From assembly GCA_016209155.1 (NCBI GenBank), contig JACQWU010000278.1:1-11750 (forward strand): a DNA stretch of 11,750 nucleotides. The letters are read 5' to 3'. The position numbers and the translations under genes are program-made. Source of the DNA: Candidatus Desantisiibacteriota bacterium. Lineage in GTDB: Bacteria > JACRDZ01. The notes beneath the pieces are model-generated. The model was given only the letters and a program-made list of their open reading frames with translations. It was not told the origin of the DNA and made no database searches. Positions 2,058-9,597 of this stretch are shown here, one piece after another (positions within the stretch are counted from its first letter, which is position 1; each line of letters starts with the position of its first letter).

Positions 2058-3317
2058 ATGTTTAAATTTGAATCTAATCAGGATGTTTTAAAATGTTCAT
2101 TCTGTGGTAAACCTCAGCATGATGTGAAAAAGCTTATAATGGGACCGGAAGTATACATTTGTGATGAATGTATAGAATTATGCAACCGTGCATTGGATGA
2201 AGCAACTATTGAAAAAGATAAAAATTTACAGATTATTCCGCCTATTACTACTCCTTTATTTATAAAAAATATTCTGGATCAATATGTGGTAGGTCAGGAA
2301 AAAGCAAAAAAGATATTGTCAGTGGCTGTATATAATCATTATAAAAGAATACATCATAATATTGCTAAAAATGATGTGGAATTGCAAAAAAGTAATATCT
2401 TATTGATAGGTCCGACAGGTTCAGGAAAAACATTGCTGGCTCAGACACTCGCAAAAATTCTTAATGTACCTTTTGCCATTAGCGATGCTACAACTTTGAC
2501 TGAAGCAGGTTATGTAGGTGAGGATGTTGAAAATATTATATTGCGTCTGCTTCAGAATGCGGATTACAATGTGGAAAAAGCAGAAGCAGGTATAGTTTAT
2601 ATAGATGAGATTGATAAAATAGCAAGAAAAACAGAAAATGTATCTATAACAAGAGATGTATCAGGTGAAGGGGTACAGCAGGCACTTTTAAAAATACTTG
2701 AAGGAACAGTCTCAAATGTTCCGCCTCAAGGCGGAAGGAAACACCCTCAGCAGGATTATATTCAGGTAAATACAAGTAATATCCTGTTTATATGCGGCGG
2801 TGCATTTACCGGTCTTGAAGATATTATTGAACGCAGAGTAGGACAAAAATCCATGGGCTTTGGTGCTGAAATTGTCAGTCGTAAGGATTACGATTTTTCG
2901 GACGTTTTTGAAAAAGCACAGCCTGAAGACCTTTTGAAATATGGTTTTATACCTGAATTTATAGGCAGATTGCCGGTAATAGCAGTGCTAAGAAAACTGG
3001 ATGAAAAATCGCTTGTTAAAGTTCTTTCGGAACCCAGGAATTCTTTGATAAAACAATATCAGAAAATAATGGAAATGGAAAATGTTAAATTGGTTTTTAC
3101 AGATGCCGCCTTGCAGGCAGTATCTCATGAAGCGGTAAAACGCGGAACCGGAGCACGGGGACTTCAGGCAATACTTGAAGAAGTTATGCTGGATATAATG
3201 TATGAAATACCAATGCGTAAAGATGTAAACGAATGTATAATAACAGATGAAGTAATAACTTTAAAAAAAGATCCTATTTTTAAAATTAATGGAAAAAATA
3301 AGGAAGAATCAGCTTAA
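2058..3317 (+). CDS. clpX: ATP-dependent Clp protease ATP-binding subunit ClpX
   Basis: ClpX is the AAA+ hexameric unfoldase that recognises tagged substrates, for example SsrA, and threads them into ClpP. At 419 residues it is complete. The N-terminal zinc-binding domain carries Cys13, Cys16, Cys35 and Cys38. Walker A GPTGSGKT is at 118-125, pore loop GYVG at 151-154, Walker B around IVYIDEID at 179-186, the RKH loop at 227-229, and a sensor-2 GARGLQ motif lies near the C-terminus. The ClpP-docking loop, IGF in E. coli, reads MGF at 266-268, a conservative variant. A strong AGGAGG (2047-2052) lies five bases before the ATG. Placement directly after clpP fits a ClpXP protease encoded as one unit. 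Confidence 0.98.
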
Positions 3318-3348: not shown

Positions 3349-3978
3349 ATGTTAGAAAAAGATGAAAAAAAGATAAATAAATATGAGTTTTTACCTTTAG
3401 TCCCATTACGCGATATAGTTGTATATCCATATATGATTGTTCCTTTATTTGTGGGAAGAGAAAAATCCATTGTAGCTCTTGAACAGGTTATGCTTAAGAA
3501 TAAAATAGTTTTTTTAGCCACACAAAAGAAAGCTAAACTGGATAATCCTAAACAGGAAGATATTTTTGAAATAGGTACTGTTGCTGAAATTTTGCAATTA
3601 CTTAAACTCCCTGACGGAGCAATTAAAGTACTTGTTGAGGGTATCTCCAGAGGAAAAATTCTCGAATATACTCCGGAAGAAAAATATTATGAGGTAAAAG
3701 TTGAAACCATTAACAATGAAATAGAAAAAACCCCTGAAATTGAGGCTATGGTCAGAAACTTGCTGAATCTCTTTGAAGAATATGTAAGCTATGATAATAG
3801 AGTTGTAGCTCAGGAAACATTAAACTCAATTATTAATATAGATGAACCCGGCCGTCTTTTAGATATTATATCAGCGCATATTGTTCTTAGAATATCTGAA
3901 AAGCAGGCTATTCTTGAAGAGACTGACATTAAAGCGCGTATGACAAAATTATCCCAAATACTCATAAGCGAAAATTAG
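3349..3978 (+). CDS. lon: Lon protease N-terminal (substrate-binding) domain fragment
   Basis: This 209-residue product is the Lon N-terminal domain, which in full-length Lon recruits protein substrates and helps hexamer assembly. It opens with the family signature EFLPLVPLRDIVVYPYMIVPLFVGRE (about residues 13-38), shown here only to name the region, and continues through the second part of the domain to ILEETDIKARMTKLSQILISEN, where the TAG ends it. The break falls at the boundary between the globular domain and the long helix leading to the ATPase. AAGGAG at 3335-3340 lies eight bases before the ATG, and clpX ends 31 bases upstream. A free domain of this size resembles stand-alone LON-substrate-binding-domain proteins, but the perfect continuation in frame shows that it derives from a normal lon. 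Confidence 0.85.
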   Translation: MLEKDEKKINKYEFLPLVPLRDIVVYPYMIVPLFVGREKSIVALEQVMLKNKIVFLATQKKAKLDNPKQEDIFEIGTVAEILQLLKLPDGAIKVLVEGISRGKILEYTPEEKYYEVKVETINNEIEKTPEIEAMVRNLLNLFEEYVSYDNRVVAQETLNSIINIDEPGRLLDIISAHIVLRISEKQAILEETDIKARMTKLSQILISEN

Positions 3979-3980
3979 AT

Positions 3981-3995
3981 AAAAAAAAAAAAAAA
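3981..3995 (+). repeat. Run of 15 adenines inside lon
   Basis: Fifteen consecutive A residues encode a run of lysines, just 3' of the TAG at 3976-3978. It is the longest homopolymer I noticed in the window. Such tracts are prone to polymerase slippage in replication, transcription and sequencing. Because the stop codon lies 5' of the run, slippage within the run alone cannot restore reading from the upstream half. Confidence 0.9.
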
Positions 3996-4023
3996 GAAGA
4001 TTCGTGACCGGGTAAAAACTCAG

Positions 4024-5778
4024 ATGGAAAGAACACAGAAAGAATATTATCTTAATGAACAGCTTAAAGCTATTCAGAAAGAACTTGGTTATAAAGATGA
4101 GCATTCCGAAATACTCGGACTGGAAGAAAAATTAAAAAAAGCTCATATGCCGAACGAAGCGCATGAAGCAGCTGAAAAAGAGATAAAGAGGCTGGAAAAA
4201 ATGCCTCCTATGTCAGCGCAAGCAACAGTAATACGTAATTATATAGATTGGCTTCTGTCTTTACCCTGGAATGTATATACCAAAGATAAAATAGATTTAA
4301 AAGAATCAGAAAAAATTCTTGATAGAGATCATTTCGGTCTTGAAAAAGTTAAAGAAAGAATACTTGAGTACCTGTCAATACGCAAATTGGTTAAAAAAAT
4401 GAAAAGCCCGATCTTATGTTTTGTAGGTCCTCCCGGTGTAGGTAAAACTTCGCTTGGTAAATCTATTGCCGCAGCGCTTGGCAGAAATTTTGTAAGAGCC
4501 TATCTTGGCGGAATAAAGGATGAAGCGGAAATAAGAGGACATCGCAGAACTTATATCGGAGCAATGCCTGGTAAAATAATACAGAATATTAAAAAAGCAA
4601 AATCAAAAAATCCGGTTTTTTTGCTGGATGAAGTTGATAAAATGAGTATGGATTTCAGAGGTGATCCGTCATCAGCATTACTCGAAGTGCTTGATCCTGA
4701 ACAAAACTGCAATTTTAATGATCATTTCATCGAAGTAGATTTTGATCTTTCTGATGTCATGTTTATTACTACGGCAAATGTATTAAGTGAGATACCTTTA
4801 CCTCTCAGGGACAGAATGGAAGTTATAACTATTGCCGGTTATACAGAATGGGAAAAAGTTAATATAGCTGAAAAATTTTTGATTCCAAAATTATTGATTA
4901 ATCACGGACTTAAAAAAGATAATATTTCATTTTCCTCTGACTGTTTAAAAACAATCATAAGAAAATATACAAGAGAAGCAGGTGTAAGGAATCTAGAACG
5001 TGAGCTTGCAAATATCTGCCGTAAAGTTGCAAAACAAGTAGTTGAAAATAAAGATAAAAATCAAAAGTTTCAGATAGTTAATAATAATATAGAGATGTAC
5101 CTCGGAGTTTATAAATATCATAGCCTTGGTGCAGAGGAAAAAGATGAAATCGGGGTGGCTACCGGACTTGCATGGACAGAAGTAGGAGGAGAAATACTTT
5201 CAATAGAAACGACTATAATGAAAGGTAAAGGTGCGCTAATTTTGACTGGAAAACTTGGGGAGGTAATGCAGGAATCAGCGCGGGCTGCTTTAAGCTATAT
5301 ACGCTCTCATTCCAAGGACCTCGGGCTGGAGGAAGATTTTTACAGGAAATTTGACATTCATGTCCATGTTCCTGAAGGTGCCATACCTAAAGACGGCCCT
5401 TCGGCAGGGATATCGATATGCACATCCATGATTTCAGCTTTGACCAATATCCCTATTAGAAAAGATGTAGCCATGACCGGAGAAATAACTCTGCGCGGAA
5501 AAGTATTACCTATCGGCGGATTGAAGGATAAAGTTTTAGCAGCGCATAGATGCGAGATTGGGACTGTAATTCTGCCTAAAATGAATGAGAAGGATATGAA
5601 AGATATACCTATGAATATTCAGAAAACAATAAAATTTGTAACTGTTGAAATAATGGATGAAGTTTTAAATGAAGCGCTGGTAAGAAAAATAAAAAAATGT
5701 GATCATATAGATAATTTTGAAAAAAACGAAAGAATAAAGGAATTAGAGTACACACATTCTGATGTAAGGTTAATGTAA
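4024..5778 (+). CDS. lon: Lon protease AAA+ ATPase and serine/lysine protease part
   Basis: If translated from the ATG at 4024 this gives 584 residues. They begin with the coiled-coil helix ([17 protein letters not shown]), then the AAA+ module with Walker A GPPGVGKT at residues 135-142 and Walker B around [10 protein letters not shown], and finally the Lon protease domain. The catalytic dyad is the Ser in PKDGPSAG (codon 5401-5403) and the Lys in GGLKDK (codon 5530-5532), 43 residues apart as in E. coli Ser679/Lys722. All catalytic residues are therefore present. The ATG at 4024 has no convincing Shine-Dalgarno site and lies 46 bases after the stop, so independent translation is expected to be weak. 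Without its N domain a Lon would probably still hydrolyse ATP and peptides but handle proteins poorly (inference). Confidence 0.85.
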
Positions 5779-9179: not shown

Positions 9180-9461
9180 CTAAAATGTCAGACTGAATTC
9201 ATTGAATTTTCTTGAAGAAATTTCTTTTTTTGTAACCTCAACGTTTTTAACACGAGACATTGATGTTCCCTGCTTTAACCGGTCAATAAGATGCTGAACA
9301 TCAGATTCAGATCCTTCAACCAATACTTCCACCTGTCGTCCGTTAGGTATGTTTTTTACCCATCCGGTTAAATTACCTGCTTTCTCAACCTCATGCATTA
9401 CAAATGCTCTGAATCCGACTCCCTGCACATATCCTGATATTATAATATTAGCATTTATCAT
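9180..9461 (-). CDS. acyP: Acylphosphatase
   Basis: This small enzyme of 93 residues hydrolyses carboxyl-phosphate bonds, as in acetyl phosphate or carbamoyl phosphate. The family signature GYVQGVGFR (residues 10-18) supplies the phosphate-binding loop and catalytic Arg18. GWVKN (33-37) supplies the catalytic Asn37. The stretch between them is one residue longer than in muscle acylphosphatase because of an Asn in AGNLTG. I chose the ATG at 9461 because the frame stays open upstream only by reading through the tRNA gene; an upstream start would give a false N-terminus (GIAQLASALRSGRRG...). A weak AGGT lies about seven bases before the ATG. The gene begins 16 bases after the tRNA-Pro CCA and precedes the TPR gene by 28 bases, so all probably share one promoter. 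Confidence 0.94.
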   Translation of the reverse strand: MINANIIISGYVQGVGFRAFVMHEVEKAGNLTGWVKNIPNGRQVEVLVEGSESDVQHLIDRLKQGTSMSRVKNVEVTKKEISSRKFNEFSLTF

Positions 9462-9477
9462 TGAATTACCTGTAAAA

Positions 9478-9554
9478 TGGTCGGGGTACCGGGATTCGAA
9501 CCCGGAACCTCTGCGTCCCGAACGCAGCGCGCTGGCCAATTGTGCTATACCCCG
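9478..9554 (-). tRNA. tRNA-Pro (anticodon CGG)
   Basis: A 77-base tRNA reading CCG proline codons. The acceptor arm pairs CGGGGTA with TACCCCG, followed by discriminator A and a genome-encoded CCA (9478-9480). C1-G72 is the bacterial tRNA-Pro pattern. The anticodon stem CTGCG/CGCAG encloses loop TTCGGGA with anticodon CGG. The T arm CCGGG-TTCGAAT-CCCGG is perfect. The D stem GCAC/GCGC has one A-C mismatch (positions 12 and 23). The identity is clear from the anticodon and acceptor. Confidence 0.97.
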
Positions 9555-9568
9555 CCGACTAGCTAAAT

Positions 9569-9597
9569 ACTTTATCATACATGCAATTCTCTGTCAA
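9569..9597 (-). promoter_or_regulatory. Sigma70-type promoter for tRNA-Pro and the downstream operon
   Basis: On the - strand a perfect -35 TTGACA (9597-9592) is followed after exactly 17 bases by TAAAGT (9574-9569), which matches four of six -10 positions. The tRNA 5' end lies 14 bases past the -10, so transcription would start about seven bases before the mature tRNA. It lies in the 57-base gap after the response-regulator gene and probably drives the tRNA, acylphosphatase, TPR and NusG-II genes. Confidence 0.65.

Follow-up and report, generated by a model that had tools for sequence, protein, structure and literature searches.

The lon gene of this stretch of DNA raises the question of whether an in-frame TAG marks a protease made in two parts or an error in the deposited sequence. 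The window, that is, the whole 11,750-nucleotide stretch that was analysed, corresponds to contig C215; the draft genome to which this contig belongs comprises 3.08 Mb (352 contigs, 79% complete), with a G+C content of about 33% in its sampled part. On the forward strand, lon occupies positions 3349-5778; codon 210 is TAG (3976-3978), and the frame is otherwise open to a TAA at 5776-5778. The initial annotation presented this as a lon that is split with its frame kept and listed four options: a recent nonsense mutation, an assembly error, regulated readthrough and a two-subunit Lon. The analysis supports assembly error, whereas the split subunit and readthrough are without a supporting signal, and the framing as a biological split is not supported, given a class of A/T-run patches that recurs in unrelated genes.

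The gene is most likely an ordinary, clpX-linked LonA, to judge from its sequence, and not a new kind of Lon. It resembles bacterial LonA (endopeptidase La, TIGR00763) in domain order, length, motifs and gene order, the arrangement tig-clpP-clpX-lon being found also at the related loci L203, L204, L205 and L208. An N-domain, an AAA module, a lid and a Lon_C domain with the catalytic Ser and Lys are all in place (Table 1), and the C-terminal part alone scores 874 bits against TIGR00763, above the cutoff. This part contains the Walker A motif GPPGVGKT, the Walker B motif FLLDEVDK, the DGPSAG motif that bears the catalytic Ser, and the Lys region GGLKDK, as had been stated when its ATPase and protease residues were called intact. 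The two further claims that both parts share one frame and that nine codons separate a Glu (3970-3972) from IRDRV (from 4000) also hold: the frame that starts at 3349 runs on past the TAG, and homologs have the identical spacing. The deposited gene differs from bacterial LonA, which has one uninterrupted reading frame, by the TAG and an adjoining run of 15 A residues (A15) where the N-domain ends; these are judged to be an assembly error. Elsewhere in the window, an acylphosphatase frame (9180-9578) and a tRNA-Pro gene (9478-9554) overlap when the former is taken to start at its first ATG (9578); since the portion past the tRNA gene alone still yields a Pfam match, the true start probably lies further in than 9578.

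Table 1. Features of the lon locus (window positions)
Feature	Position	Strand	Remarks
clpX, upstream neighbour of lon	2058-3317	+	order tig-clpP-clpX-lon common to relatives
Lon N-terminal substrate-binding domain, codons 1-209	3349-3975	+	PF02190 (LON_substr_bdg), E 2e-53; gapless-style match to PDB Lon N-domains
In-frame TAG, codon 210	3976-3978	+	column is Glu in 28/35 homologous segments
Lon ATPase and protease part, in the frame of the N part, to TAA	3979-5778	+	PF00004 (AAA), PF22667 (Lon_lid), PF05362 (Lon_C); TIGR00763; PDB 6u5z, E 1e-217
A15, regarded as a faulty assembly patch; Lys over conserved Lon columns, length unchanged	3981-3995	+	same class elsewhere in the genome
Met226, first in-frame ATG past the TAG	4024-4026	+	no Shine-Dalgarno-like sequence in front

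Codon 210 is indeed the sole stop in the gene, as originally noted, but it is not the sole lesion. An uninterrupted A15 begins two bases past the TAG and covers conserved columns, which had been missed. Where the homolog consensus reads E-x-E-I-L-x-(I/V/L)-E-K-K, the present sequence reads N-stop-I-K6 over a stretch of unchanged length, so a plain insertion of A residues is ruled out. Column counts from 35 different homologous segments, selected as stop-free, are E (34), x, E (28), I/V/L (34), L (31), x, I/V/L (33), E (33), K/R (30), K/R (34) and I/V (35). Exactly across the A15, the hydrophobic and acidic columns (L, I/V/L and E) become Lys, and agreement with the homologs resumes directly afterwards; consecutive Lys residues number at most two in this segment among the 35. 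The argument from a scarcity of lesions, by which a pseudogene in decay ought to carry more of them, is thus not supported, because a second lesion adjoins the TAG and similar patches recur about 30 times in unrelated genes.

The extent of this class was surveyed by genome-wide pattern searches together with about 0.49 Mb of extracted stretches. Across the genome, A/T runs number 36 at exactly 10 bases, 10 at 11, 5 at 12-13 and 31 at 14 or more (36 at 12 or more), and the lengths measured for the long runs are concentrated at 15-17, with a maximum of 19. In a background sample of 350 kb of contigs, picked independently of the runs, the counts fall from 236 (length 8) through 41 (9) and 5 (10) to 0 (11). 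Long runs therefore reappear after the tail of the length distribution has died out, which is not the behaviour of ordinary sequence. Runs of at least 14 are absent from three genomes of the same phylum and from 86 of the 98 genomes searched, and the genome ranking next after this one has 9. The lesion thus recurs in unrelated genes and is lacking in related genomes, as expected of a local assembly error. As a separate observation, a T precedes 24 of 32 A-runs, which is above compositional expectation.

Runs of 14-19 A or T lie within protein genes at L153, L163, L164, L166, L167, L169, L170, L171, L175, L177, L178, L182, L185 and L186. In such genes they replace residues, add stops or shift the frame, and they form an artefact class that extends across the assembly. 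In infB (L167), a gapless IF-2 alignment crosses KKKKK where the PDB chain reads RDNVV; alignments of an MrpD/NuoN-like gene (L153) and of a TrpX-like binding protein gene (L164) likewise cross run-encoded K5 without a gap. A glucose-1-phosphate cytidylyltransferase gene (L186) carries a T19 run with about 40 residues missing and the frame shifted: against PDB 1tzf, its left part stops at residue 70 and its right part begins at 112. Stop codons at run edges are found also in L163, L166 and L185. Two further genes were not counted as cases, namely an antitoxin-like gene with a T15 run, for which the homolog search gave no PDB match, and an SbcD-like gene with a T14 run, which aligns only piecewise, with no piece spanning the run.

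Given that the lon stop lies at the edge of one of about 30 runs that overwrite unrelated genes, a local error of the assembly very probably accounts for both the TAG and the A15 beside it. Around a stretch left unresolved, about 20 bases would have been exchanged for placeholder or erroneous A-rich sequence of roughly the right length, and a wrong consensus at the left edge of this patch would have produced the TAG. The TAG lies two bases outside the run and is not built of run bases, so that the account needs an additional wrong base, or a small indel, just left of the run. It nevertheless appears to belong to the same faulty patch, because the sole stop of about 810 codons sits two bases from it. 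This assumed extra error is the weak step of the account; beside the runs in infB and in the MrpD-like and TrpX-like genes, the sequence looks normal, which counts against it.

Other traces of faulty joining are present in the same assembly. N-gaps with the same sequence on both flanks occur at L145:1769, L169:5632, L195:10391 and L199:3509, and are gaps inserted despite overlapping flanking contigs, a known scaffolding error. Such gaps have been described from assemblies made with IDBA-UD and CLC, and consensus stretches that no reads support are given as a further type of local assembly error (PMC7111523). The present genome resembles these metagenome cases in having both short consensus stretches contradicted by relatives and N-gaps with overlapping flanks. 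The filling with A/T runs is particular to this assembly and does not figure in the passages of PMC7111523 on such errors, and the likeness is drawn from the assembled sequence rather than from reads. A literature search for assemblers that write A for unknown bases returned nothing relevant.

Among the alternatives, a real and recent nonsense mutation, tolerated through a second Lon encoded elsewhere and perhaps lying next to an A15 that is still an artefact, survives best, although it is unlikely. It gains some plausibility from an uninterrupted second Lon frame (798 aa) that this genome carries on contig C78, and the rest of the clpX-linked gene is intact, as a fresh lesion would predict. 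However, in about 810 codons, an independent mutation would have had to strike no more than two bases away from an artefact patch, a coincidence with a rough chance of less than 1 percent, and the C78 Lon is a different paralog: its C-terminal part is 57 percent identical, whereas the clpX-linked Lons that relatives encode reach 67-68 percent. This second Lon is located at G000:C78:7013-8680 (L151).

That the TAG is real and separates a working free N-domain from an ATPase-protease part, the latter made by re-initiation at Met226, is very improbable, a low probability that also covers a regulated readthrough of the TAG that would yield some full-length Lon. The TAG does sit where the globular N-domain ends, between two intact halves that share one frame, but nothing found provides positive support for either version. 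The second half has no ribosome-binding site of its own: Met226 lacks the Shine-Dalgarno-like sequence that precedes most genes of the window, including tig, clpP, clpX, lon and panD. Nor is TAG reassigned; it ends the clpP, NusG-II, acylphosphatase and GGDEF genes of the window and 44 of 285 long frames sampled, and recoding is rejected because TAG is thus a normal stop in this genome, although a readthrough that leaves no sequence signature would not show up in this way. A very close relative was sought and none was found; in the inspected Lon segments of the nearest, and thus distant, relatives (65-68% identical), no stop occurs at the junction between N-domain and ATPase part, so that the split is not conserved among them. 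A split or readthrough Lon would also leave the poly-Lys over conserved helix columns unexplained. A literature search for split or truncated lon genes returned no relevant paper.

Long A-tracts are known slippage sites, yet it is extremely unlikely that transcriptional slippage or phase variation at this tract switches or rescues lon. Slippage is rejected because, with the TAG upstream of the tract, no change in tract length could bypass the stop. Similar tracts are also scattered over infB, transporter genes and sugar-nucleotide genes that share no theme, and in three genes (infB, MrpD/NuoN-like and TrpX-like) they overwrite sequence rather than insert into it.

The lead of a split Lon is accordingly removed as false, and a systematic error is flagged in its place: about 30 A/T-run patches create false poly-Lys and poly-Phe stretches, stops and frameshifts in the genes of this assembly, and other findings near such runs call for caution. 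As for the organism itself, it would carry one ordinary full-length lon at the clpX locus.
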